Both the position numbers and the translations under genes were made by a program. A stretch of DNA of 64,000 nt from an uncultured Prevotellaceae bacterium (lineage in GTDB: Bacteria > Bacteroidota > Bacteroidia > Bacteroidales > Muribaculaceae), in assembly GCA_900318345.1 (NCBI GenBank), contig ONKD01000011.1:140355-204354 (forward strand). The letters run 5' to 3'. Each line of letters begins with the position of its first letter. The stretch's first letter is position 1. Positions 3,541-64,000 of this stretch are shown one piece after another. Below the pieces are notes generated by a model. That model did no database searches. It saw only the letters and a list, made by a program, of their open reading frames with translations, and was not told the DNA's origin.

Positions 3541-5061
3541 TTATTTCATGACTTCCATAATGGCTTTGCCCAGGTGCTCAACGATGTCACCAGCCACCAT
3601 GCCATAGGTGCCATGCTCCTGAGCTGCCAGGTCGCCGGCCAGTCCATGGAGATACACACCCAGCACAACCGACCAGTCGGCAGCATAGTTCTGGGCAATG
3701 AGTGCCGAGATCACACCAGTGAGCACGTCACCGCTACCCGGTGTTGCCATGCCAGGATTGCCACTGCTGTTGACATAGACCTTGCTGTCAGGGCGCACGG
3801 TCATCGTGTAGTGACCCTTGAGCACAATGGTGATCTTGTAAAGCTTGGACACATCAATCGCTTTCTTCAGGCGCTCCTCATCGGTGTTGTGCTCGCCAAA
3901 CAGGCGGTCAAACTCGATGGCATGAGGCGTGATGATCGAGCGCTGGGGAATGCTCTTGAGGAGCATAGGCCGACGGGCAATGCAGTTGAGCGCATCGGCA
4001 TCAAGGAGGCACGGACGCTTGAAATTCATGATGAAATGATGCACGGCATCAAGTGTCTCGTCGTTCACGCCCAAGCCGGGGCCAAGCGCTACCACACTAT
4101 AGGTGTGGCGCAAGTCGATGGCCGAGGTCATGATCTCGTTGCGGTCAGGCTCAAACAGGGCCTCAGGAACGGCGGTTTGCAGGACCTGATAGCCACAACG
4201 CGGCGCATGCACAGTCACCAGACCAGCACCAGTACGCAACGCACCACGTGCGGCCAGCACTGCGGCACCCATCATGCCGTAGCTGCCGGCAATGAGCAGC
4301 AATGTGCCATTATCATACTTGTTCATGAAGGGATTGCGCGGTCGCATCACCTCATGAACATCATCTCGCTCGATGAGATAAAAGTCGGTTGGCGTGCGAG
4401 CAAGGCTCTCGCTGTCCAACTCGATATCCAGCACTTTGCATTCGCCCACAAACTCGGCATTCTCGGCAAAGTAAAACGCCAGGCGCTTGCTCTGGTAAGT
4501 CAACGTGAGGTTTGCCCTGATGATGTTACGGCGGTCATTGCCCACATTCCACTCGCCAAACATACCCGAGGGTATGTCAATGGAAACAATGTAAGCGCCG
4601 CTGGAATTGATGTATTGCACCAGGGCGGTGTAACCACCCTTGAGAGGCGTGCGCAGCCCGTTACCGAACAAGCCATCGACCACCACGTCGTTCTCGTCGA
4701 GTGCAGGCGGGTCAAAGGTCTGGATCACCTCGATGAAGTTGATGTCATCGCCCACGGTAGCGAGCAAGCGGTCACGGTTAGTGAGACAGCACGGTGAAAG
4801 CTGTGCCGACTTGATATTAAACAGATAAACCTCAGGCCTGTAGCCCTGTTCGTACATCATGCGTGCCACGGCAAGCGCATCAGCGCCATTATCGCCGGGG
4901 CCAGCAAAAATGACGAAACGCTTGGAGGTCCTCCAGCGCGAGATAAGCTCATAAGAAACAGCCGACGCCGCCCTTTCAATGAGGTCGAGCGTCAAGATGT
5001 TCTCCTTTTCTACGGTACGGTCGCAGATGCGGCGCAGTCCATCATTGGTAAATATTTTCAT
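3541..5061 (-). CDS. nnr: Bifunctional ADP-dependent NAD(P)H-hydrate dehydratase / NAD(P)H-hydrate epimerase
   Basis: The 506-residue fusion repairs hydrated NAD(P)H. The N-terminal YjeF/NnrE epimerase domain (about 1-215) has FAGPGDNGADALAVAR. The C-terminal ribokinase-fold NnrD dehydratase domain (about 235-506) has AGSYGMMGAAVLAARGALR, ALGPGLG and GNPGMATPGSGDVLTG. In the last motif P replaces the more usual G of ATGGSGD. The usual TPHPGEF motif reads TPHAIEF, a mild divergence in the dehydratase half. It is monocistronic on the minus strand, convergent with tRNA-Leu, with a TAATTTTG -7 box 40 bp upstream. Confidence 0.93.
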   Translation of the reverse strand: MKIFTNDGLRRICDRTVEKENILTLDLIERAASAVSYELISRWRTSKRFVIFAGPGDNGADALAVARMMYEQGYRPEVYLFNIKSAQLSPCCLTNRDRLLATVGDDINFIEVIQTFDPPALDENDVVVDGLFGNGLRTPLKGGYTALVQYINSSGAYIVSIDIPSGMFGEWNVGNDRRNIIRANLTLTYQSKRLAFYFAENAEFVGECKVLDIELDSESLARTPTDFYLIERDDVHEVMRPRNPFMNKYDNGTLLLIAGSYGMMGAAVLAARGALRTGAGLVTVHAPRCGYQVLQTAVPEALFEPDRNEIMTSAIDLRHTYSVVALGPGLGVNDETLDAVHHFIMNFKRPCLLDADALNCIARRPMLLKSIPQRSIITPHAIEFDRLFGEHNTDEERLKKAIDVSKLYKITIVLKGHYTMTVRPDSKVYVNSSGNPGMATPGSGDVLTGVISALIAQNYAADWSVVLGVYLHGLAGDLAAQEHGTYGMVAGDIVEHLGKAIMEVMK

Positions 5062-5100
5062 TGCTAACGAGTGATTTCAAGTGTGAATGATATGAGGGAA

Positions 5101-5108
5101 CAAAATTA
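5101..5108 (-). promoter_or_regulatory. -7 box of nnr promoter
   Basis: The minus strand reads TAATTTTG here, 40 bp before the start codon at 5061. Confidence 0.5.
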
Positions 5109-5268
5109 CTTCATTTTTAGCTTATGGAGCACAAAAAATTTAAAAAATCTATCGTTTTTTAGATTCTTTTGCAACACCCCGATAATTCTTATTCCTGCTA
5201 ACACTCCTTTTTTAATAAATTATAACCGAAATAACTGCCCTTGAATGAGTTCATATAAACTTTTTTAC

Positions 5269-5276
5269 TATCTTTG
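5269..5276 (+). promoter_or_regulatory. -7 box of the CotH-kinase gene promoter
   Basis: TATCTTTG is an exact consensus match. It overlaps an in-frame TTG at 5274 that could be taken as a start, and so argues for the ATG at 5322. Confidence 0.65.
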
Positions 5277-5321
5277 CAGCCGCAAAAGTTAATGTTTAAC
5301 AACAGAATTACATATTTTTTT

Positions 5322-7064
5322 ATGAGGAAAAAGTTTCTCTTGGCTTCATTCCTAATGCTGACAGCTCTTGCCTCGTGGGCACAGGTATTTAGCATTGGAG
5401 GCCATCGAACAGTGTTTGACAGTCGCTACAACAGGTGGTTGTGCACCCTTCCACAGGAATACTTTGGAAATGACTGGACGACTACCATCAGCTATGTAGA
5501 CACACTTGTCACTGAGATTGAGATTGAGGGCAACGTCATCGGTGGCGGTGGCTCGGTCACCTTTGAGGGCCTCGTGGGTGGCAAAGAATATCCCACTAAC
5601 GTCTATGTGGGTGACAGCCTCATCAGCGGTAACATCACGTTCACGTGGCTCCCGATTGTGGAGTTGAATGGCACTATCGGTGATGAGTATGAATACGGTA
5701 CCGTAACCGTCAATGAACCCGACTCGGCAAACGCCGAGCCCCTGTTCGCAAAGTTGAAATGGCGCGGACAGACCACCAACCAAAGAGGTAAGCACAAGCG
5801 TAACTACCGCATTAAGTTTGTCAACGAGGAAGACAGCACTAAGGAGAATCACCGCTTCTTCGGTCTGCGCAATGACAACTGCTGGATACTGGATGCCGGC
5901 CAGGTGGACTTCCTGCGCGTACGCAATCGCGTGAGCACCGACCTGTGGCTTGACATGGCCCGTCGCCCCTGGTACAGCGACACCCTGCCCAATGCCCGCA
6001 ACGGTTCTCGTGGCCAAATGGTAGAAGTTCTGCTCAATGGCGAGTACGCTGGTATCTACAACATGTGTGAGCCCATCGACCGCAAGCAGATGAAACTCAA
6101 GCGTTATGACGAGGAGAACGGGGAGGCCCACGGCGGCTTGTGGATGGCCCACTATTGGAGCCGCACCGTCAGCATGAGCAATCCTTATTGGTTCTTTGCC
6201 GACAGGCCCACTTGGGACGGCTTTGAAATCAAGTATCCCGACCCCGACGAGATTGGCCAGACGATTTGGTCTGTACTTCCCAATGCCGTTTGGTTTGCCA
6301 ACAACGCAAACGACGACCATGTCCTATGCACCGACAGTTTGGCTTACTATTATGACATTCCCGTGCTGCAGGACTACTACATTTTCATTGCAGCGCTCCA
6401 GGCACTTGATAACGAGAGCAAGAATATATTCTATGCATGCTACGACGCTCAGGACCATCCCAGACTGACTATCGCACCTTGGGACCTGGACATCTGCTTA
6501 GGCCAGAACTATTCGCCCGGAGTCAACTTGCCCGACATGGTGAAGCCCGACCGCTATATGGATTGGATCAGCCATCTGCCCATGATTAACATGATCGGTA
6601 TTGAAGAGTACCATGACCAAATCAAGGAACGCTACAAGGAACTGCGACAGACCGTGCTCAACACCGACAGCCTCGTGAACCGCTATCGCAGCGTCATTGA
6701 CGAGTTGGAGAATAGCGGCGCCGCCGCGCGCGAGGAGCAGCGCTGGAGCCACGACACCGACCTGGTGCTGAAAAAGCTTGACCTGAGCGCTGAAATGGAT
6801 TATGTGGAAAACTGGATTCGTCGCCGCATGGAATTCCTTGATGATAATGATTGTGAGAATCTTTTCCCGCCCATCCCCGCCCCCATCTATCCTAGGGGTG
6901 ACGTGAACGGAGACTTCGAGGTCAACATTGCTGATGTGAATGCGCTCATCGACATCATCCTGGGTGGCGTTGACAACTCTGAAGGCCGATCGGATGTCAA
7001 CGAAGACGACGAGGTAAACATCAGTGACATCAACGAAGTCATTGACATCATCCTGAACAGTTAA
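5322..7064 (+). CDS. Secreted CotH-kinase-family protein with C-terminal dockerin-like module
   Basis: The 580-residue exported protein has signal peptide MRKKFLLASFLMLTALASWAQ and a beta-rich N-terminal part to about residue 140. A CotH kinase domain follows (about 140-480; KLKWRGQTTNQRGK, LDAGQVDFLRVRNRV, LLNGEYAGIYNMCEPID, APWDLDICLG). CotH proteins are atypical protein kinases first known from spore coats; the role here is unknown. The last 55 residues hold two EF-hand-like repeats (GDVNGDFEVNIADVNALID and SDVNEDDEVNISDINEVID), a type-I-dockerin-like module. The ATG at 5322 is chosen because it opens the signal peptide and lies 45 bp after the -7 box. A PPAD-like deiminase with the same module follows. 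Confidence 0.85.
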   Translation: MRKKFLLASFLMLTALASWAQVFSIGGHRTVFDSRYNRWLCTLPQEYFGNDWTTTISYVDTLVTEIEIEGNVIGGGGSVTFEGLVGGKEYPTNVYVGDSLISGNITFTWLPIVELNGTIGDEYEYGTVTVNEPDSANAEPLFAKLKWRGQTTNQRGKHKRNYRIKFVNEEDSTKENHRFFGLRNDNCWILDAGQVDFLRVRNRVSTDLWLDMARRPWYSDTLPNARNGSRGQMVEVLLNGEYAGIYNMCEPIDRKQMKLKRYDEENGEAHGGLWMAHYWSRTVSMSNPYWFFADRPTWDGFEIKYPDPDEIGQTIWSVLPNAVWFANNANDDHVLCTDSLAYYYDIPVLQDYYIFIAALQALDNESKNIFYACYDAQDHPRLTIAPWDLDICLGQNYSPGVNLPDMVKPDRYMDWISHLPMINMIGIEEYHDQIKERYKELRQTVLNTDSLVNRYRSVIDELENSGAAAREEQRWSHDTDLVLKKLDLSAEMDYVENWIRRRMEFLDDNDCENLFPPIPAPIYPRGDVNGDFEVNIADVNALIDIILGGVDNSEGRSDVNEDDEVNISDINEVIDIILNS

Positions 7065-53214: not shown

Positions 53215-53886
53215 TCATTTTGGCTTTTTCCAATAATAACGATATTTACATTTGCTGAAATGATCAAGCAGCTCTTCTAATTCGTTCATATCAGATTCAG
53301 AATAGCCGACAAAAGATGTCTTAAGGTTATTATCAGCTTTGGCTTTGGCCTTCTCCTTGTCAGTGGTACCTTTGTAGCTCCCCAAAAGATTGACTCTTTC
53401 CGTCGGCTCCATAAAGTCTATCGGGTTAATTGTCCTCATCTTTAAAATGGGATTGCTCTGCATTTGGGATGCAGCATTGAATACTCGAAATAGCTCTGCG
53501 ACCTTCCAAGGACCATCGTAGAGCGTTCCATCTTTTATGTTCTGAATTTGTCGAATAAGGATACCGCCAAAGTAGGAATTCTCAGAGAGCCTGTATTTTA
53601 AAGAATTCTTCGCTTCCTTTTCAATTCTACTTTCAAAGTTTAAATCTATTCCTCCAAAATCGTTGAAGTACCAGCATAAAGCATCAGACTTCCTGGGATG
53701 AACCGAAATATCCCGATGGTTTTTGTTATAGAAATAGAATTCAAAATCCAGGATTCGGTACTCCTCATTCTCAAATTCTATAACGCAACACTTCTTTAGG
53801 ATTTCTGCAATTTGTTCAAATCGATCCTCTATGTTGATAGCATCAAAAGGGATACGCATTAAATTCTTAAATTCTTCAATTTTCAT
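53215..53886 (-). CDS. Hypothetical protein of the AT-rich island (223 aa)
   Basis: I do not recognise this protein. It is cytoplasmic, rich in Asn, Lys, Glu and Phe, and begins MKIEEFKNLMRIPFDAINIE. Notable stretches are ILDFEFYFYNKNHRDISVHP, WYFNDFGGIDLNFE and ENSYFGGILIRQIQNI; the acidic/aromatic beta segments could form an enzyme-like fold, but no catalytic motif is clear. The upstream 132 bp are repeated before the GIY-YIG gene, so both may share regulation or arrival history. Base composition is clearly lower in G+C than the chromosome to the left. Confidence 0.7.
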   Translation of the reverse strand: MKIEEFKNLMRIPFDAINIEDRFEQIAEILKKCCVIEFENEEYRILDFEFYFYNKNHRDISVHPRKSDALCWYFNDFGGIDLNFESRIEKEAKNSLKYRLSENSYFGGILIRQIQNIKDGTLYDGPWKVAELFRVFNAASQMQSNPILKMRTINPIDFMEPTERVNLLGSYKGTTDKEKAKAKADNNLKTSFVGYSESDMNELEELLDHFSKCKYRYYWKKPK

Positions 53887-53904: not shown

Positions 53905-54036
53905 ATTATTTGCCGATGCAAAAGATGCAACTTATTGATAATCAGTTGATTATTTATTTAACGGTACAAATGTGGTAGAGTTTTGTAGTACAATTTTCAA
54001 AGTCTTCACATTTAACAATTTTGACTTAGTTTAACG
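53905..54036. repeat. 132-bp upstream repeat, copy A
   Basis: It aligns without gaps to 56225-56356 at about 85% identity by eye, with the distal 54 bp most conserved. It ends 18 bp before the start codon at 53886 (minus strand). Both copies include a TACCA-ATTTGTACCG-like motif on the minus strand. Confidence 0.8.
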
Positions 54037-54058: not shown

Positions 54059-55486
54059 CTAAATAGCAAACAAGTCGTCAAGCTTCACTTGACTTTGTAT
54101 CATGCCTGTGTATTTACCTTGTGCCACACCTGCGGTGGTTATCATGGTAATCCAAGGCGCATGACGGAGTCCTGTCTCTTGAATAAACGCATTGCTTCGT
54201 TTGCAAATCTTGTCATATTCATCTTTCTTCAGTTCATATTCTCCATGGCTATACTTCACTTCGCAAACGTTGACTATTCTGTCGGCACGTTCAATGATGA
54301 TATCTATCTGTACGGCAGGCTTAGCTATTTTACTTCGCCAAGAATAGCTGAGCGTAGATATAGCATCTATTCGCAGTGCGTGTTTAATCTGCTGTATATG
54401 GGCCAGACAAATTCGCTCGTAGGTGAGTCCCATCCAGGAATTGATTTCAGGCGTATTGATATGGTGAGCCCAATATTGTTGTTCTACCTCTGCCCTGTCT
54501 ATAAAAGTAAGGTAGAACAGACTGAAAAAGTCGCATAGCTGATAGATTGCATCTTTCCGCTTGATTTCCTTTTCGCGCACAACATTTTTGCGTATGAGGT
54601 CACAATGGACGAGATCCTCCAATCGTTTTCCCAGATGGCCGTTATTGGCACTTTTCAATTCTTTTGCCAATTCCTCTCGTGTCATTCCTCTGCGGCTTTT
54701 GCCCAAGGTCCTAATGATATCAATGTATTTATCTGGATTCTTATAGAGGGTATTGAATAGACGGCGGAACTCACGGCGCATCTGCATGTCCTGACTGAAA
54801 AATAGACGATCTACATTCTGCACCAAACTTTCTTCAGGATCTAACAAACTTAGGTAATAGGGTATGCCCCCAAAGACCATATAGGCTTGGAGTATCATTT
54901 GACGGTTCCATACGAAATGCCTACTTTCAAGATAAGACTCAACCTCCTTTAGAGTAAAAGGATGGATTGGCATTTCAACTGTGATGCGGTCATGCAACCC
55001 TCCCTTGCTGTCAATGACATTGGTTATCATCCAGCTTGTTGCGCTTCCGCAAATGATGAAAATGATGTTATCGTACTGACTTGCCCAGCTATTCCAAAAA
55101 TAGCCGACTGCACCAGCTACGTTCGAGCCCTCTGCATCAAGGGCCGGCAATTCGTCAATAAAAATCACGCATTGTTCGCCACTTTCCACTTTCTGTTTCA
55201 ATGCATGTTTCAGCATGATAAAGGCCTGCATCCAGCCCTTCGGCTGTTCCGGCATATCAAATCCGTAGTCACACATAGCATCGGCAAATGCCGTGAACTG
55301 GTCTCTCAGTTTACCCTCGATAACGCCAGTCATCTTGAAGGCAAACTGATTCTTGAACATCTGGTTAATCAAGAAAGTCTTGCCGACACGCCTGCGTCCA
55401 TACAATGCCACAAATTCAGGCTTAGCACTCTCAACGGCAGCTTTCAGCCTCTTTATCTCCGATTCCCGTCCAATGATCGTCTCCAT
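54059..55486 (-). CDS. Archaeal-type P-loop ATPase with C-terminal DUF234/nuclease-like domain
   Basis: From the Met at 55486 the protein has 475 residues. The start is set by the family opening METIIGRESEIKRLKAAV; an earlier Met (55516) overlaps a promoter-like CAAAGTAA. The ATPase domain has Walker A YGRRRVGKTFLINQMF, Walker B CVIFIDELPALD and sensor IIFIICGSATSWM. A winged helix (about 255-330: SRRGMTREELAKELKSANN) and a C-terminal DUF234 domain follow, with IDIIIERADRIVNVCEVKYS, a PD-(D/E)xK-like strand. Such ATPases are common mobile or defence-associated genes in Bacteroidetes, with no proven role. Alternating palindromes lie upstream. Confidence 0.88.
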   Translation of the reverse strand: METIIGRESEIKRLKAAVESAKPEFVALYGRRRVGKTFLINQMFKNQFAFKMTGVIEGKLRDQFTAFADAMCDYGFDMPEQPKGWMQAFIMLKHALKQKVESGEQCVIFIDELPALDAEGSNVAGAVGYFWNSWASQYDNIIFIICGSATSWMITNVIDSKGGLHDRITVEMPIHPFTLKEVESYLESRHFVWNRQMILQAYMVFGGIPYYLSLLDPEESLVQNVDRLFFSQDMQMRREFRRLFNTLYKNPDKYIDIIRTLGKSRRGMTREELAKELKSANNGHLGKRLEDLVHCDLIRKNVVREKEIKRKDAIYQLCDFFSLFYLTFIDRAEVEQQYWAHHINTPEINSWMGLTYERICLAHIQQIKHALRIDAISTLSYSWRSKIAKPAVQIDIIIERADRIVNVCEVKYSHGEYELKKDEYDKICKRSNAFIQETGLRHAPWITMITTAGVAQGKYTGMIQSQVKLDDLFAI

Positions 55487-55552
55487 AGATGATATCCATT
55501 TTGTTTTCCATCGCAAAGTAACTACAAACCTTCGAGATAAACAAGGTATTTT

Positions 55553-55672: not shown

Positions 55673-56197
55673 TTACTCTTCTATGTCTCCAATCCACCAA
55701 GAAGGAGATTTAATAATATTTTGATGTTCCCTATTGTCTATTAGAGCTGGAATACGGTCATGCTTACCAATATTTTTAATTTGAAGAGCATACCATCGTG
55801 TATATGCATTTCTTTGAGAACAATTACACTTTGGGCCAACTTCCGTAATTAATGCGCTCTCTATAGTCAAAAGTAATCTATTATAGTGATAAACTTTCTG
55901 GTAATTGATAGGGGAAACGATTCTCCCAAAACGAACTCTAAATTCGCCATATTCGTTCAAAAAAGGAGTGTTTGAGTCATTTATGTGGTGTTGACAGATT
56001 CTTTGGGATATCCTCCTTTTAGTTTTTCCAATATATATGGGAGTCTCATTGTCTCCGTTTGCTCGATGAATAATTCTTGTTATGTAATAAAAACCTCCTT
56101 CCCAATCTTTGTTATAAAGATTTATATTATCCCAAGAAATAGGATTACTCCAATTTATGACAACCGTATGTAGACGATATGGATCATTTCCTTTCAT
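55673..56197 (-). CDS. GIY-YIG nuclease-like protein
   Basis: From the Met at 56197 the protein has 174 residues. A Met at 56254 is possible but lies inside the 132-bp repeat. The GIY-YIG core reads GGFYYITRII and PIYIGKTKRRISQRI, with the family arginine in RRISQRICQH and a catalytic-type glutamate in LLLTIESALITEVG. The domain fills most of the protein, with a short aromatic tail (SPSWWIGDIEE). Small GIY-YIG proteins occur in homing, restriction and repair contexts. It is AT-rich and sits in the presumed defence island. Confidence 0.75.
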   Translation of the reverse strand: MKGNDPYRLHTVVINWSNPISWDNINLYNKDWEGGFYYITRIIHRANGDNETPIYIGKTKRRISQRICQHHINDSNTPFLNEYGEFRVRFGRIVSPINYQKVYHYNRLLLTIESALITEVGPKCNCSQRNAYTRWYALQIKNIGKHDRIPALIDNREHQNIIKSPSWWIGDIEE

Positions 56198-56224
56198 ACC
56201 AAAATACTTAATAGTTAATAATTT

Positions 56225-56356
56225 ATTATTTGCCGATGCAGAAAATGCAACCATATGATTATCAGATATTTATATGCTAAACGGTACAAATATGGTAGAG
56301 TTTTGCAGTACAACTTTCAAAGCCTTCACATTTAACACTTTTGACTTAGTTTAACG
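56225..56356. repeat. 132-bp upstream repeat, copy B
   Basis: It is a gap-free match to 53905-54036, lying upstream of the GIY-YIG gene on the same strand and at a comparable distance. Confidence 0.8.
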
Positions 56357-56386
56357 GTGCGCGAATTCAACTGGCAACTGCAATTT

Positions 56387-56546: not shown

Positions 56547-56966
56547 TTAAGATAAAGAAATGGGCAATCTATTTCTCAATCTTGTTTTTAAGAAAAGCAT
56601 GCCCGATGTCGGGTCACATTCAAACACTCCTTTATTGATTAAAAAATCAATTAACTTTGAAGCCCGTTCTTTTGTAATGCCCTCAAACTGTTTTATTAAA
56701 ATCTCCACAAGTTCATCAATTGTTGGATTAATTCTTGTATCAGGCTCCTGCAAACCAATTGGATTAATTACGGATAAATTCTTATTTTGAGGAGCGATGC
56801 TAATCTGCAGCAGATCAGAAAGAACTCCATTGACTATAGAATCAACATCTTCAGTAGGGCAACCGGCATTAAGCGCTAGCTGATTGAGAACTGCGACCTG
56901 ACATACGCCAGGATGAGTTCTGATAAAACCTTCAACTGGTTCGAAAAAATGTGATGGATGAATCAT
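56547..56966 (-). CDS. Small terminal protein of the GTPase-centred system (139 aa)
   Basis: I do not recognise this protein. It starts 10 bp after the GAP1-like gene stop and is the last gene of the operon. It is largely helical: an N-terminal ~55 residues (VEGFIRTHPGVCQVAVLNQL) resembling a small adaptor or winged-helix unit, a linker, and a C-terminal helical hairpin (IDELVEILIKQFEGITKERA). By analogy with related predicted systems it could be an adaptor between GAP1 and an effector, but that is inference. Confidence 0.65.
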   Translation of the reverse strand: MIHPSHFFEPVEGFIRTHPGVCQVAVLNQLALNAGCPTEDVDSIVNGVLSDLLQISIAPQNKNLSVINPIGLQEPDTRINPTIDELVEILIKQFEGITKERASKLIDFLINKGVFECDPTSGMLFLKTRLRNRLPISLS

Positions 56967-56976
56967 ATTACAATTT

Positions 56977-58944
56977 TTATAATAAATCTATCAAAGTTTT
57001 ATTCAACTGCTGATCAGGAGTAAAAGACTCAATATAATTCTTTGATACTTTTAGTGCCTTTAATCGTTCAACAACTCCTTTTCTGAGTTTCTTACATTTA
57101 TCCCATTCTTGCCATGGCAAAACACTGCCTGTATACGACCTTATTTTATCCCAACTACTCCAACTGAGAGCACTTTTAGCTGCCAACTGATATATTGGGT
57201 AGAATGCCTTTTTTAGATAAGCTAAGGCAATTGCATCATTCCAATTATATGATAGCAAGAAAAGGAATGTATAGTACTTATCAGGACCGTCATAAGAACT
57301 ATTTGCAAATGCTTTCCAAGCAGAACTTGAGCTTTGTTTTACGTCTATAGAATTTGGAGAGACATTCGTCATAATAAATTCAACAACAACTTTATTTAAT
57401 GAATCGCGTCCATTCATCCAATCTGCAATCTGATCAAAATGAGTAAAACAATAAACACGTAAGCTATTATCCAAGATATATTGAACACTAGCACTAAGAT
57501 ATTCCATAACAAGATATACCAGATCAGGTACAACAGAAATGAAACGATCCTTCATCGTTTCATCAATATGATAATGCTTATACAATACTACTAAGAATAA
57601 CTTATCCCACTTATCGAAATAAATATTACTGTTCTTCTGGAAGATCTCATATGTTGATAAGAACCTGTCCTCTGGAAAATCAACCCATATAGATACAGAT
57701 AGTAATTGAGGGCATAAAGTCACCAATGATATGTAAGTTGGCCAATCCTGTGATGATATTTTAACCAAATCATCCAATTGAAGAAACTTGTATGAATTTT
57801 CTAAGGTTCTTTTGCCATACTGATTGAAATAATCTTTTTGCAACAAATTTGATAAGAGACGAATGTATGAGTCCTTATCTTCACGGGCATGTCTAATTAC
57901 GCGTTGTTCAAATTCGTTGAGACTATAATCAAGAGATTGTGATGCTTTAAATGTGGCAATGTCAAGAAGTATATTTTCCTCGCTGTCGAACACCCTAGAC
58001 ACGCGTTCGCTCATGAAAGATTTTTTTACGTTCAATCCCTCACCACTAGGAAATGACTCTGCTATAATTGACAATATGTCCTTGTAGCGTAAGGCAGACG
58101 AATCCGCAGACATAGCCTTATCCAAACATTCTGATAAGTAAGCTACGGAACATAATTTAGAAATACTACTGCCAATATCTCCAGAGAATAATCGCAAGAA
58201 CTTTGGCATACCTTTGTCATTATTCAGAATTGCATGGCCCAGTGATCTTATTCCTTCATTGAAATTGGATGTCTCTAATCCTCCTACATCATTCGCAGTT
58301 AATAAAGGAACTGAATTGTGATTCGCAAACTGTAATGAGGATTTAACTCTTGGGAAATGACGTCCTGATGCTGAACCTGAGCAAAAAGCTACTCTTGCTA
58401 AGATGCCTACAGGAAGATACTGTACAAGGCACAAACATAGATTCTGATAGAAATCGGATGAGCGCTCTATAGCAAAACATCTGGATGATTGTAGAAGTTG
58501 AACAAGTATATACATTATTTGCACCTGGGAGATCTGATTGCTTGCAAGAAAGCCCGCATCCATATGAGATTGATCACCAGATAGTTCAAATGCATAATTA
58601 TAGTTGTGATGGCTGTCATTATTAGGTCGTTGAAAGAGAGGTAACAGTTGACGGAAATCAAAATTAGTTTCCAAATTTTCCAAATCAACAAGGAATGTGT
58701 GCGTCCACACACACCCAGGGCGAGGCATCTCATTGGCATACCAACTCTTAGCAATAGCATAATATTTGCCATCGGGGAGGGGATAGCCCATAATATAAGA
58801 ACTATCACCATTCGCATCACCACTATACTCTGTCCAATCGCTCATCACTTTTAACAAGTCGTCATCAATACTTGGTAGTGTTAATGACGAAGCCAAAAGA
58901 GTGTGCCCTTGGTTATAGCCGTGTAGTGCCTGATGAATGATCAT
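56977..58944 (-). CDS. GAP1-like large protein (GTPase-associated protein with GAP1-N1-type N-terminus)
   Basis: The 655-residue protein opens with MIIHQALHGYNQGHTLLASS, the signature of the GAP1 N-terminal domain, then YYAIAKSWYANEMPRPGCVW and THTFLVDLENLE (about 63-95). The remainder is alpha-helical with no enzymatic motif that I can see. GAP1 proteins were named from their constant association with pairs of GTPases in predicted NTP-dependent conflict systems; they are thought to regulate or scaffold the GTPases. Here two P-loop GTPase genes precede it directly (9-bp gap). AT-rich composition sets it apart from the host genes. Confidence 0.8.
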   Translation of the reverse strand: MIIHQALHGYNQGHTLLASSLTLPSIDDDLLKVMSDWTEYSGDANGDSSYIMGYPLPDGKYYAIAKSWYANEMPRPGCVWTHTFLVDLENLETNFDFRQLLPLFQRPNNDSHHNYNYAFELSGDQSHMDAGFLASNQISQVQIMYILVQLLQSSRCFAIERSSDFYQNLCLCLVQYLPVGILARVAFCSGSASGRHFPRVKSSLQFANHNSVPLLTANDVGGLETSNFNEGIRSLGHAILNNDKGMPKFLRLFSGDIGSSISKLCSVAYLSECLDKAMSADSSALRYKDILSIIAESFPSGEGLNVKKSFMSERVSRVFDSEENILLDIATFKASQSLDYSLNEFEQRVIRHAREDKDSYIRLLSNLLQKDYFNQYGKRTLENSYKFLQLDDLVKISSQDWPTYISLVTLCPQLLSVSIWVDFPEDRFLSTYEIFQKNSNIYFDKWDKLFLVVLYKHYHIDETMKDRFISVVPDLVYLVMEYLSASVQYILDNSLRVYCFTHFDQIADWMNGRDSLNKVVVEFIMTNVSPNSIDVKQSSSSAWKAFANSSYDGPDKYYTFLFLLSYNWNDAIALAYLKKAFYPIYQLAAKSALSWSSWDKIRSYTGSVLPWQEWDKCKKLRKGVVERLKALKVSKNYIESFTPDQQLNKTLIDLL

Positions 58945-58953
58945 ATTATCAAG

Positions 58954-59742
58954 TTAAATCAGTGAACTCAAAGGAAGTGTCAAGTCATATGACTTAATGC
59001 CATCTTCAGTAACAACGAATGAACGTTGCCCGTTTTCGGTTTTCTCGATAAGTGATTCCACATTTTCAGTAGAATAAATATCTCCTTGAGCACTAATACC
59101 AAACAATTTTGCATCAGGAAAATACCTCTTGATAAAATTGTTCATGAATCTTGAATTCTGCTTAAGATACTCACGCGGATTGGAATAATCATTCTGATAC
59201 ACATCCCACGCTGTGAAACAAATAGCGAGTTTCTTCCAAGGAAAGAGGTTGTGTAGTTCTTTCAAGATTAGAACATTCTGTACTTCATTTGAAATGTCCT
59301 TCATATCAAATGATGGTAGTTTTGTGTCCTTTATTGTATCATCATTTTGAAATTGATCAGCAAAAACAGATGAATTAAGGTCCTTTATAAACAGCATCAA
59401 TGAGTCTGGTTCGCTATCCCAGTCTTTAATAAGTTGAGACTGTTTTTGGACAATAGCCTGAAAGTTCTCTCCGGCTATATCGGGAAGGGATACAGAAATG
59501 ACATTTCCATCGGTATTGCGCTTAAGGCTTAGCTCAATGTTTGTGGCTCCGCCAATTTGCGTTCTATCAACTTCCTTGATGCTTAGCCATGGTTGCTGGA
59601 GTCTATTGAGATAAGAAAAGTCTGCAGGGATTTCAGCAAATGAAAGAGCTTGGCCCTCAACAGGATTACTCAGTAGATAAGACAGAGCTCCGATAAATGT
59701 GGTTTTACCAGTACTTGGCATGCCTGCTATTAAACACTTCAT
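58954..59742 (-). CDS. P-loop GTPase of the conflict system (DO-GTPase-like, 262 aa)
   Basis: The protein opens with Walker A GMPSTGKT (7-14), has DIAG (88-91) as the G3/Walker B motif and TAWD (177-180) in the place of the G4 NKxD motif, so base recognition by Asp180 is plausible. GIS followed by AQGD (about 210) may be the G5 region. The sequence ends right after the fold. With the upstream GTPase it forms the paired-GTPase arrangement of GAP1 systems. Switching or nucleotide-dependent assembly is inferred. Confidence 0.82.
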   Translation of the reverse strand: MKCLIAGMPSTGKTTFIGALSYLLSNPVEGQALSFAEIPADFSYLNRLQQPWLSIKEVDRTQIGGATNIELSLKRNTDGNVISVSLPDIAGENFQAIVQKQSQLIKDWDSEPDSLMLFIKDLNSSVFADQFQNDDTIKDTKLPSFDMKDISNEVQNVLILKELHNLFPWKKLAICFTAWDVYQNDYSNPREYLKQNSRFMNNFIKRYFPDAKLFGISAQGDIYSTENVESLIEKTENGQRSFVVTEDGIKSYDLTLPLSSLI

Positions 59743-59744
59743 AG

Positions 59745-60644
59745 TTATTTCTTTTTATTAATCATTTCATTAACCCAGTCAAGACTTGATGCCTGAGGCT
59801 GGTTCGAGGTTTCTTCAACCGTATGCAGTATAATATCTTCGAAAAGACTTATAAGCTTGTTGTTGTTTTTCAAACTATTTGCACGAATTTCAAAGGTTTG
59901 ACCAATCTTAAGATTAATGATATCCTCAAAATTTGTAATCAGCTTCTCCTTTTCTTTTCCAAATTTGTTTTCATCATTAACCTTATCAATCTTATTGAAC
60001 ACCAATTGCAATTTGGTTTTACGAACAAACAAGCCGTTTTCCTTCATATTCCTGAGGAGCTGCTGGTATTGAGTGGTTAGCGAAAGCCGTTGTTCATTGC
60101 AAAGCTTTTCAGAATCAACAAAGAACATGATTCTATCAGCATTCTTGATTAAGATATCATCTGCAATTTTACCCTTTTTTGCAGCATAGTCCGCATAATC
60201 CTCACCAGAATGATCGGAAATGACAACAAGCTTATCTCCATACTGTGGATGACTGAGATGAAATGTAAGCAAATAAGGTTCGCCAAGAACAGTACGCTTG
60301 GTTTCTGGGGCTATTTCAATATTGCGGTCATTCAATCTACGAAGGAAAGATCTTCGTTCTAACCCTACCAAGGTCTCAGAATCATAGAAAGCATATCCTG
60401 CAATATCTTCTTTTTGAAGTAGAGTCTGGTAAAATGAAGAAACAAATGATGTTTTACCATAGCCAACAAATCCCACAAGAACGGTAATCTCTGGTTTGCT
60501 TGATGACATCAAGGCATTGATCTTCTGGTCGTCACTCATAGCTTCTCCTATGAATTGACCAATATTATCAGCTCTTTCTGCTGGCTTTACAGCAGGCACT
60601 TCAGCTGGATTTACACCTGTAATAAGTTCTATCTTGTCGTCCAT
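59745..60644 (-). CDS. P-loop GTPase of the conflict system, partner (299 aa)
   Basis: The G motifs are all visible: Walker A GFVGYGKTS (58-66), DHSG (144-147) as G3, and NKID (217-220) as a canonical G4. A ~50-residue N-terminal extension and a ~40-residue C-terminal helical tail frame the domain. The start codon overlaps the preceding stop by one base and the next GTPase begins 2 bp after its stop, so the two are made together. This pairing is the hallmark of the GAP1/double-GTPase systems. The membrane or target partner is unknown. Confidence 0.85.
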   Translation of the reverse strand: MDDKIELITGVNPAEVPAVKPAERADNIGQFIGEAMSDDQKINALMSSSKPEITVLVGFVGYGKTSFVSSFYQTLLQKEDIAGYAFYDSETLVGLERRSFLRRLNDRNIEIAPETKRTVLGEPYLLTFHLSHPQYGDKLVVISDHSGEDYADYAAKKGKIADDILIKNADRIMFFVDSEKLCNEQRLSLTTQYQQLLRNMKENGLFVRKTKLQLVFNKIDKVNDENKFGKEKEKLITNFEDIINLKIGQTFEIRANSLKNNNKLISLFEDIILHTVEETSNQPQASSLDWVNEMINKKK

Positions 60645-61579
60645 TATTCTTCTAATTTTTCAATCATTTGTTCAGTAAGCAGTTCATAATAAAGATATAT
60701 GCCAAACTCAATAACATTTAGCTTCCTCTGTAAAAGGAAATCTGAATTTTTAACTTGTTCTTTATTTATCAATCTCAAAAGTACTGATGTGCCAGTATTG
60801 ATGTCTCTTGATAATGGCTCGATATCTTTCAATATATTAGATAGCATTTTATTTTTTTTCTCGCCATTAGCACTTTGGATGATATAAGCTTCTGCATCAT
60901 AATTATAATATAAATATTGATAACTATCTACTAGTCTTGTTATGATGCTATACACTCTGACAAAAGGATTTGAGATATTGAGTAATTCCTGATTTTTCAA
61001 TAGTTCGTCACATCTATAGTAAGCTGCATCTTTCGCAATTGTTTGTAAGTCTTTGATTTGCAGTTTATTAAGCTTGTTTTCGTCGTTGCCTGTGCGAAAT
61101 TTAGCAATGATACTGATAATAGATGTGGAAAGCACCTCTCCGGTTGTGTCATGCTCTGACAAATAGTTTGTAATATGGAATTTATATATTTCCCTAATTA
61201 CCACTTCATTAGACAGCTCATTCCAACGTCCTTTAGCCAAAATCATTGCATTCATGAACATTGTTGCATAGAGATGCTGCTTCAAATCATCGCTTTCTTC
61301 AAGAACTGTAAGATAGACAGAGAACAGAGATAGACGTGCTATGACATTGGTTGGAAGGGTTGTTAATTCTGAATCATTATCTTTTAAAGTATTAGCGACA
61401 TAATCAGAAAAATCTTCAGAAACAATACCCGTGATAAATGATAAAGAACATTCATCTATCTTAACGAACAAATCGTTTTCTTTATAAGAACGGCATATAG
61501 TGACAAGTTGTGTCAACAACTCGTTGTCATATGGAATTGCTACAGCTCCATCTAATATTATAGCTAATTTTCGTTCCAT
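60644..61579 (-). CDS. Helical protein of the GTPase-centred system (GASH-like)
   Basis: The 311-residue protein is almost entirely alpha-helical with no enzyme motif (IARLSLFSVYLTVLEESDDL, NPFVRVYSIITRLVDSYQYL, FGIYLYYELLTEQMIEKLEE). It lies 4 bp after the phosphoesterase gene and overlaps the GTPase start by one base. Its size, position and all-helical nature fit the GTPase-associated system helical domain described for such operons, but I assign it by context rather than by sequence motif. Confidence 0.65.
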   Translation of the reverse strand: MERKLAIILDGAVAIPYDNELLTQLVTICRSYKENDLFVKIDECSLSFITGIVSEDFSDYVANTLKDNDSELTTLPTNVIARLSLFSVYLTVLEESDDLKQHLYATMFMNAMILAKGRWNELSNEVVIREIYKFHITNYLSEHDTTGEVLSTSIISIIAKFRTGNDENKLNKLQIKDLQTIAKDAAYYRCDELLKNQELLNISNPFVRVYSIITRLVDSYQYLYYNYDAEAYIIQSANGEKKNKMLSNILKDIEPLSRDINTGTSVLLRLINKEQVKNSDFLLQRKLNVIEFGIYLYYELLTEQMIEKLEE

Positions 61580-61583
61580 AAAA

Positions 61584-62840
61584 TTATTTCATGTTATTCC
61601 ACAACTCAATAAGGCGACCTTCATCCTCCATCTTATTTAAGAAGCGTATGCTATTTTCATTTATCGTTTCATTTTCATCAAAATCGGCACCAATTAAAGC
61701 TTTGCGATTCTTGCTCTGCAAGAATTTTACTCTAATCTGACGCAATGTTATTCCTTCTGGTAAAATCACCTTGGGTGCAGGAGACTCCTGTTTCCACCTA
61801 TTGACATGTTTTTTCAAGTCAACAATATACGTATTGCAGCTTTCTGCATCTTCCTCAAACTTATCATCTTCCTCGTTGTATTTCTGTACTCTGAGTGCAA
61901 CATGAAGCTCGTCGGATTTGTCATCTTTTGGCATAACATTCAATTCTAAAATATTATATATGCTGAAATAATCATTACTTCCCTCTGCTGATGGTGGTTG
62001 AAGTGCTCCTGACTCAATTCGCACAGCATTGTGAGCAGAAGAAGCGGAACGATGGAGATGCCCATAAATCTGCAATTGGAAATTCTGATCTAATGTGGCT
62101 TCAATCTCATCGTTGTCAACCAAGTATGTCAAAGGATGGTGCATCATTACAATATTGATGCATCCTTCTGTATCCGCAATAGCGTTATAACTTAATGATG
62201 GGAGGAACTGTTTGTGCCCATTGCCATTATCTTTTAAATCATCCCAATCAGAAATGAGCGATGTATTTAAGCAAAATAAATAAACATGATAATTCCCCAG
62301 ATCCTTTAACGGTGATTTCAAATATAATTTATCTGTTGTTATATCAAAATTTGTTTCATTTGGATGAACAACAATCTTCTGCATCATTGGTTCTGCGCTA
62401 TCAAAGCTAAAGGCAAAATCATGGTAGTCCGTGAAAGGACGATAAAGCAGTTTGAAACTATTGAAGTCTTTATAAAGTAATTGAGTAAATTTCTCATCAG
62501 GATTTGCTGATTCACATGAAAGCCCTGCATTAATCAGATGTCGTAATTCGGGATTATGAGATACGAAATTCTTGTCATGATTGCCAGGTACCACATAAAC
62601 ACAATCAGTAGTGCATTTAACGATATCGCAGATTCTTTTAATTAATTTGAAAGCAATATCAAATTCGTCTTTTGCGCCCGTATTAGCAACATCACCACTA
62701 ATCAGGATATAGTCAAAGCCTCCTTTTTCTGTAACATAATCCTCCAAATCTTTCAAAAAAGCTCTACGCATCTTAGCGTTAGGATCTTGCTCTTCAGGAG
62801 CAGCAATGAAATGAATGTCTGATAAAATAAGGAATTTCAT
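61584..62840 (-). CDS. Calcineurin-like metallophosphoesterase of the GTPase-centred system
   Basis: The 418-residue protein has the complete two-metal phosphoesterase set: SDIHF (7-11), ISGDVANTG (GD at 49-50), PGNHD (85-89), IVMMHHPLTY and LQIYGHLHRS. The N-terminal ~270 residues form the catalytic domain; the C-terminal part (RVQKYNEEDDKFEEDAESCN and onward) is a system-specific extension ending in helices. In conflict systems these domains are predicted nucleases or cyclic-nucleotide phosphodiesterases, so this is the likeliest effector. It is the first gene of the tightly packed operon. Confidence 0.9.
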   Translation of the reverse strand: MKFLILSDIHFIAAPEEQDPNAKMRRAFLKDLEDYVTEKGGFDYILISGDVANTGAKDEFDIAFKLIKRICDIVKCTTDCVYVVPGNHDKNFVSHNPELRHLINAGLSCESANPDEKFTQLLYKDFNSFKLLYRPFTDYHDFAFSFDSAEPMMQKIVVHPNETNFDITTDKLYLKSPLKDLGNYHVYLFCLNTSLISDWDDLKDNGNGHKQFLPSLSYNAIADTEGCINIVMMHHPLTYLVDNDEIEATLDQNFQLQIYGHLHRSASSAHNAVRIESGALQPPSAEGSNDYFSIYNILELNVMPKDDKSDELHVALRVQKYNEEDDKFEEDAESCNTYIVDLKKHVNRWKQESPAPKVILPEGITLRQIRVKFLQSKNRKALIGADFDENETINENSIRFLNKMEDEGRLIELWNNMK

Positions 62841-63194: not shown

Positions 63195-63225
63195 CAAAGA
63201 TAGCTCTAATTCTTGAAATAGACAA
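63195..63225 (-). promoter_or_regulatory. Promoter upstream of the GTPase-centred operon
   Basis: On the minus strand TTG (complement of 63223-63225), a 20-bp spacer and TATCTTTG (complement of 63195-63202) match the full consensus. Confidence 0.7.
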
Positions 63226-63900: not shown

Positions 63901-64000
63901 TTATTTGAGTGATTTTTGATATTCCTCCTGGTATGGTCGTATGAAGTCGTCAAGCGAGGTGATGCCCATCTTCCTGGCTATCTTTTTCTTCTTGTTCGAG
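63901..64000 (-). CDS. C-terminal end of a minus-strand gene (5' part outside window)
   Basis: The frame is open from the right edge and stops with TAA at 63903-63901. The visible 32 residues include KKKKIARKMGITSLDDFIRP and end in YQKSLK. They are too few to assign a family. The basic start and G+C content nearer to the chromosomal average suggest it may lie beyond the AT-rich island. Confidence 0.5.
   Translation of the reverse strand, partial: SNKKKKIARKMGITSLDDFIRPYQEEYQKSLK

Follow-up and report, generated by a model that had tools for sequence, protein, structure and literature searches.

Does a compact six-gene cluster in a rumen gut bacterium act against invaders, and through which activity would it do so? 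The cluster lies in a stretch of 64,000 nucleotides (contig ONKD01000011.1, positions 140,355-204,354; hereafter the window) from an uncultured Prevotellaceae bacterium, placed in the Muribaculaceae by GTDB. We regard it, with moderate confidence, as a horizontally acquired, divergent GAP1-N1 defence operon, in which a GTPase switch gated by infection would activate a nucleotide-hydrolysing phosphoesterase. A role against invaders as such we hold to be likely.

Gene content of the operon

The cluster consists of six tightly packed open reading frames (ORFs) on the minus strand, running from 62840 to 56547, which are separated in gene order by 4 base pairs (bp), a 1-bp overlap, 2, 9 and 10 bp. 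Their guanine-cytosine (GC) content is 0.34-0.38, against about 0.5 across most of the window. Coordinates, strand, lengths, spacing and low GC all agree with an earlier reading made from the letters alone (the sequence-only reading), which had described six packed same-strand genes in AT-rich DNA. The genes are as follows, with protein lengths in amino acids (aa):

61584..62840, minus strand: calcineurin-like phosphoesterase, 418 aa, predicted effector (Pfam Metallophos, NCBIfam DS8_antiphage, PADLOC PDC-S60)
60644..61579, minus strand: divergent protein in the GASH slot, 311 aa (assigned by position in the operon; no Pfam match)
59745..60644, minus strand: DO-GTPase2, 299 aa (Pfam PF19993, 1.3e-28)
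58954..59742, minus strand: DO-GTPase1, 262 aa (Pfam PF19975, 1e-42)
56977..58944, minus strand: GAP1 with an N1-type N-terminal domain, 655 aa, predicted coordinator or sensor (Pfam PF20012)
56547..56966, minus strand: ORF after GAP1, 139 aa, probable passenger (no family match)

The large protein had been called GAP1-like, and it turned out that residues 3-103 match the GAP1-N1 family PF20012 at 5.7e-29 (100.8 bits, with a cut-off of 27). The two P-loop GTPases with G3 and G4 motifs were likewise read correctly and form a Pfam DO-GTPase1/DO-GTPase2 pair: DO-GTPase1 carries the Walker A motif GMPSTGKT, DIAGE and a G4-type TAWD, DO-GTPase2 carries GFVGYGKT, DHSGE and a G4-type NKID, and the Walker B glutamate (DxxGE) is present in both. 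Among the families proposed beforehand for hidden Markov model (HMM) searches, GAP1-N1, DO-GTPase1 and DO-GTPase2 were thus all matched, while GASH was not matched by the 311-aa protein.

In the excerpts available of Kaur et al. 2020 (eLife, PMC7159879), GAP1-N1 systems are predicted to comprise GAP1, a pair of DO-GTPases of which one bears a zinc ribbon, the helical protein GASH and a variable effector, most commonly a calcineurin phosphoesterase, which is coupled through a GAAD or EAD1 adaptor or by fusion to GAP1. The window operon has in common with these systems, as far as the excerpts describe them, the GAP1-N1 protein, the two DO-GTPases and the phosphoesterase effector. This agreement bears out the earlier comparison with a predicted conflict system, and by its sequence the operon almost certainly belongs to the GAP1-N1 type of GTPase-centric conflict systems. 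GAP1 has three domains (N, M and C) in the same excerpts; Pfam reports the N1 domain alone, and neither GAP1-M nor GAP1-C, for the window protein and for those of L004, L016 and L048, three of the related loci introduced below.

Conserved gene order and exchange of the effector

We gathered 20 loci with a GAP1-N1 match, namely the window, the relative in Phocaeicola vulgatus (L004), 13 plasmid loci (from 29 matching records) and five from other Bacteroidota genomes. Two were set aside, L045 (below the Pfam cut-off, with no operon gene by BLAST) and L050 (cut by the start of its record), and L002 and L037, whose operons are nearly identical to that of the window, were not counted separately. 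This leaves 18 informative loci: the window, L004, 12 plasmid loci and four other Bacteroidota genomes.

The order GASH slot, GTPase2, GTPase1, GAP1 is kept in all 18. It was assigned by Pfam or BLAST for the window, L004, L016, L044, L048 and others, while the GTPases of L051-L056 are unnamed or generally named ORFs that stand in place and carry Walker A motifs. Under a simple pattern, Walker A and DxxGE were found in the GTPase1 proteins of 18 of 18 loci; for GTPase2 the pattern missed Walker A in one (L012) and DxxGE in three (L015, L052 and L054).

The effector gene, by comparison, varies. It encodes a phosphoesterase in 13 of the 18 loci, as judged by Pfam (window, L004, L011, L015 and L016), by BLAST together with annotation (L012 and L014) or by annotation alone (L051-L056). 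The others are a PNP-type phosphorylase with GAAD (L043), an alpha/beta-hydrolase with GAAD (L013), a SEFIR/TIR protein with GAAD (L048), a PNP fused to GAP1 (L044), and a separate downstream PNP accompanied by a sub-threshold EAD1 match on GAP1 (L049), giving a tally of 13 phosphoesterases, three phosphorylases, one SEFIR/TIR protein and one alpha/beta-hydrolase. For three of these four kinds of effector, known relatives have nucleotides or NAD as substrates. The effector couplings described by Kaur et al. recur on the loci gathered here.

Generally, the plasmid systems (from Caballeronia, Bradyrhizobium, Rhizobium, Pantoea, Aeromonas, Aliivibrio and others) resemble the window operon in layout, with effector, GASH slot, GTPase, GTPase and GAP1 in 12 of 12 and a metallophosphoesterase effector in 11 of 12. 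Unlike the window, they have GASH annotated in 11 of 12 (Pfam-confirmed in the two scanned, L011 and L016), at least four cysteines before the Walker A motif of GTPase2 in 9 of 12, and GAAD in all four effectors scanned (L011, L013, L015 and L016).

Several details were seen in single loci. An IS30 transposase gene interrupts the GASH gene of L014 (Aliivibrio salmonicida plasmid, 3892-6123), and in L055 the GAP1 match mostly precedes the annotated start. Small genes whose products start with MKIxILGWGSL directly follow GAP1 in two Bacteroidota loci (L048 11327-11887 and L044 5794-6327, the latter weakly ChaC-like), which makes a recurrent downstream partner possible.

The phosphoesterase as predicted effector

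The 418-aa protein matches Pfam Metallophos at 1.3e-15, and its metal-site motifs DIH, GD, GNHD, HHP and GHxH are invariant in seven of seven aligned proteins (that of the window and six homologues), in agreement with the calcineurin-like phosphoesterase with complete metal motifs that the letters had suggested. The NCBIfam model DS8_antiphage covers residues 6-327 at 8.6e-28 and DS9_1 covers residues 3-99 at 3.3e-13, neither of them reaching its whole-protein cut-off; the CpdA and SbcD models are far weaker than DS-8, at about 2e-3. PADLOC PDC-S60 matches at 3.9e-21, and a sequence search of PDB gave no match at E<=0.01. In the excerpts available of the DefensePredictor paper (PMC13092281), DS-8 is a metallophosphatase with a NACHT domain, DS-9 is a metallophosphatase with a HAD phosphatase gene, and changing residues predicted to be catalytic in the metallophosphatases of DS-8 and DS-9A costs phage defence. 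The metallophosphatase domain is homologous, and the window protein differs in its company, sitting with DO-GTPases and GAP1; the DS-8 model aligns through positions 2-292 of 994 alone, and Pfam gives no NACHT match in the 418-aa protein.

Because the effector varies among relatives, we take the phosphoesterase as an exchangeable output, and it is likely the effector of the operon. It might instead be a regulator that holds the system in check by degrading a nucleotide second messenger, while GAP1 and the GTPases make the output. Excerpts of Kaur et al. (PMC7159879) do list a calcineurin-superfamily phosphodiesterase among the cyclic-nucleotide-cleaving enzymes of related systems, and cGAMP is cleaved by SMPDL3A, which the excerpted text of PMC13092281 names as a human homologue of DS-8. 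However, SEFIR/TIR, PNP and alpha/beta-hydrolase proteins with GAAD take the same first-gene position in L048, L043 and L013, the PNP of L044 is fused to GAP1, which again fits an exchangeable output, and the Pfam scan found no nucleotide-cyclase family in the operon. We consider a regulatory role unlikely.

As for what the effector would act on, a nucleotide or nucleotide-derived signal is favoured over nucleic acid because the likeness to DS-8 far exceeds that to CpdA and SbcD, and in our judgement a nucleotide substrate has slightly better than an even chance. The other possibility is a nuclease of the SbcD/Mre11 kind, with DNA or RNA of the invader or the host as its target. The calcineurin superfamily includes DNA nucleases, and the PADLOC model PDLC00736, described as an endonuclease, matches residues 2-113 at 2.6e-12. 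Against this stand the wide gap between the SbcD and DS-8 scores and the Pfam scan of the operon, which found no Rad50/SMC-like ATPase family, and a nuclease is about as doubtful as a regulator.

Proposed mechanism and departures from the known architecture

The favoured reading of a GTPase-gated defence operon is drawn from the identity of the genes, their conserved order, the intact motifs, the exchange of effectors, the recent transfer and the defence-type neighbours (see below for the last two). At rest, the phosphoesterase would be kept inactive by GAP1 and the DO-GTPase pair, with the 311-aa protein in the role of GASH. An infection cue, probably perceived through GAP1, would switch the GTPases, which would then release or activate the phosphoesterase. 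The enzyme would hydrolyse either an essential nucleotide or a signal derived from nucleotides, and the cell would stop supporting the invader, as in abortive infection. We infer the sensing by GAP1, the gating by the GTPases, the phosphoesterase as a nucleotide-acting killing step and phages as the target.

The closest comparison within the Bacteroidales is an operon of five genes in P. vulgatus ATCC 8482 (NC_009614; L004 5976-11980), which has the same order and shares 34% identity with the window in the phosphoesterase, 31-32% in the GTPases, 32% in GAP1 and 18% in the slot protein. Relative to the systems in the excerpts of Kaur et al. (PMC7159879), the window operon lacks a detectable GASH, a detectable effector GAAD and the zinc-ribbon cysteines and has the 139-aa ORF in addition; the P. 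vulgatus operon shares the three variant features (slot protein, GAAD and zinc ribbon), and it has no relative of the 139-aa gene. What is new here is that these two operons, judged by their sequences, form a divergent variant of the known system.

The slot protein is the most divergent part. The 311-aa protein has no Pfam match and the GASH model finds nothing in the genome, so that the title of helical protein given to it earlier was not confirmed. Among the slot proteins scanned, the Pfam GASH model matches six of eight, one barely above the cut-off; the two left out are those of the window and L004. These two (311 and 315 aa) are 18% identical at 5e-13, and when 186 targets were searched with an HMM built from 12 slot proteins, neither ranked among the best 12.

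A number of observations weigh against the proposed mechanism. In hhalign comparisons, the slot protein aligns with GASH over the C-terminal 26-27 columns alone (E 0.02-0.07, probability 1-2%), and global alignment to GASH fails. Pfam recognises GAAD in six of nine effectors scanned and not in those of the window, L004 or L049. GTPase2 of the window has no cysteine before Walker A, where a zinc ribbon would be expected. With GASH and GAAD not detectable and the zinc ribbon missing, parts of the standard mechanism may differ here. Besides, the defence-type neighbours are an indirect sign of a defence role, a weakness that we count on the same side, and phage records gave no match and viral contigs no close relative, which is uninformative either way.

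Two of these departures can be set beside the relatives. The C-terminal tail of the phosphoesterase occupies the position that the GAAD adaptor has in several of them; in small searches with two home-made GAAD models, the window effector came first with the one (E 0.08) and second with the other (E 0.13), behind an unrelated window protein at 0.10. GTPase2 has at least four cysteines before Walker A in 13 of 18 loci and zero to two in five (the window, L004 and the plasmid loci L052, L053 and L054), which means that loss of the zinc ribbon is not peculiar to Bacteroidales and that the ribbon is not universal among relatives.

A further reading would make of these departures a Bacteroidales subtype, in which GASH was replaced by, or diverged past recognition into, a different coupling protein, and in which the operon is cargo of a repeat-bounded defence array; we think this improbable. 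If true, the coupling protein would work without a zinc ribbon or a recognisable adaptor, and a cassette-like array would carry the operon about within the genus, its modules ending in a conserved element of about 130-150 bp.

For the proposed GTPase-gated phosphoesterase, in turn, the conserved block, the exchange of effectors and the tie to DS-8 give falsifiable predictions for GAP1/DO-GTPase systems, which were predicted in 2020. As the P. vulgatus relative belongs to a gut strain that can be cultured, GTPase gating and substrate are directly testable there for this variant.

Distribution and recent transfer

The operon is not a fixed, syntenic core locus, which would have spoken against a defence role. 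The GAP1-N1 domain turned up in 2 of 101 genus genomes (2 of 48 of good quality), 2 of 347 family-sample genomes (the same two as in the genus), 4 of 396 class-sample genomes and 4 of 394 phylum-sample genomes (one below the cut-off), and the genome of the window itself is included each time.

The second genus genome, G067, carries the operon at 99.43% identity over 7366 bp, while a flanking gene common to both (agmatine-deiminase-like, Pfam PAD_porph) is 85% identical, which argues for recent transfer. The operon stands on the same side of this gene in the two genomes, and the intervening genes are largely different. Between the two copies, 4 positions differ in GAP1, the slot protein and the two GTPases combined, and 14 in the phosphoesterase (9 synonymous and 5 nonsynonymous). 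A 7.8-kilobase (kb) contig binned as Eubacterium (L002, JAFOIV010000116.1) is 99.8% identical over 7.7 kb and shows the same gene end beyond the operon; misbinning is more likely here than transfer. Of the 29 plasmid records with a relative, 23 are conjugative and a further 5 mobilizable (28 in all). In P. vulgatus, a helicase-like gene stands in the vicinity of the operon, as does a tyrosine-recombinase gene which, from a visible motif, we take to be of the integrative-element type. By these comparisons, the operon is accessory, horizontally acquired and recently transferred.

This distribution also bears on whether the operon could be a GTPase system that serves stress responses or housekeeping and has nothing to do with invaders. 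In favour of such a role one may note that searches of an open-access library (subscription papers not covered) yielded no experimental test of GAP1/DO-GTPase systems or of their anti-invader role. Among the results listed there, the sole paper that treats these systems is that of Kaur et al., and PMC11237479, in the part available, names DO-GTPase once. Yet the rare and patchy occurrence, the recent transfer, the conjugative or mobilizable plasmids of the relatives and the defence-type surroundings all speak against housekeeping, which we consider quite improbable.

The 139-aa ORF after GAP1

The sequence-only reading had proposed the last gene as a new component, labelled a small adaptor, of no known family. 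The last point stands, as the protein has no family over the cut-off in Pfam and none in NCBIfam, PADLOC or PHROGs. For the adaptor label no support was found. The gene does start 10 bp past GAP1 with coding-like GC at the three codon positions (0.48/0.34/0.29), as in the other genes, and a weak DEP-like Pfam match (E 0.047, below the cut-off) could hint at a sixth component such as a winged-helix regulator.

Relatives, however, were not found beyond near-identical copies. BLAST against ORFs of at least 80 aa in P. vulgatus and nine other distinct loci gave none (one chance-level match, E 0.34), plasmids at E<=1 gave two weak Streptomyces matches alone (E 0.3), and the 101 genus genomes gave the G067 copy alone, with three chance-level matches (E 0.02-0.09). 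In G067 the gene is shortened to a 113-aa ORF and identity with the window stops within it. We therefore rejected it as a component: a genuine sixth member is quite doubtful, and the gene is probably a passenger.

Neighbouring genes and a flanking repeat element

A PDC-S27 ATPase gene (54059-55516, PADLOC 4.6e-182) lies near the window operon; on the other side, the contig ends at position 64000. In G067 the neighbours are AriA/AriB-like genes (8.2e-32 and 1.8e-22), a PDC-S01 ATPase gene and a RhuM/PDC-S05 gene; beside the same flanking gene, a further genome (G054) has a type IIG restriction-modification gene and a HEF_HK and Response_reg_2 pair. On the opposite strand, annotated RADAR genes adjoin GAP1 in the Aliivibrio copy (L014).

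Two further features of the window were recorded:

56205..56357, minus strand: conserved element on the 3' side of the operon, present as a direct repeat (the other copy is at 53905-54036)
63195..63225, minus strand: possible but weak Bacteroidales-type promoter upstream of the operon, TTG-N20-TATCTTTG (pattern scan)

The repeat element is about 130-150 bp long, with 42 invariant columns across 20 aligned copies. Copies occur in L037 (3149-3274, 4757-4889 and 7563-7701) and also in L038, L039, L040, L042 and L061-L066, arranged head to tail in loci with more than one, and the element was matched in 18 of 61 genus genomes, three of them by short matches alone. A same-strand ORF precedes 20 of 24 copies, and for 14 it is a PDC-S01/PDC-S27-type ATPase gene (seven scanned with PADLOC, the rest assigned by sequence likeness); the other four have no same-strand ORF of at least 90 aa just before them. 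The element looks like a cassette boundary, and in G067 it does not directly follow the GAP1 operon. An integron attC site was ruled out, as the 20 aligned copies give no consensus pairs and thus no conserved RNA fold; Rfam found nothing up to E 1 over 50-64 kb of the window. We also ruled out that the window and G054 have one and the same gene at the far end of the island, as the translated ends are different proteins and a 186-bp noncoding stretch alone is shared there (85% identity).

The promoter consensus, which we take to be of Bacteroidales type, has three matches on both strands of 50-64 kb (the one listed, one inside GAP1 and one at 53345 on the plus strand); single-base shuffles of 53-64 kb gave 0.8 on average.

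A 193-aa protein encoded shortly after the operon (55673-56254) has a weak Pre-SET match alone in Pfam, and by its motif we presume a GIY-YIG-like look. ATPase_2-type genes stand near GAP1-N1 operons in two genomes from different Bacteroidota families, at 3722-5140 in L048 and, as the PDC-S27 gene named above, in the window.

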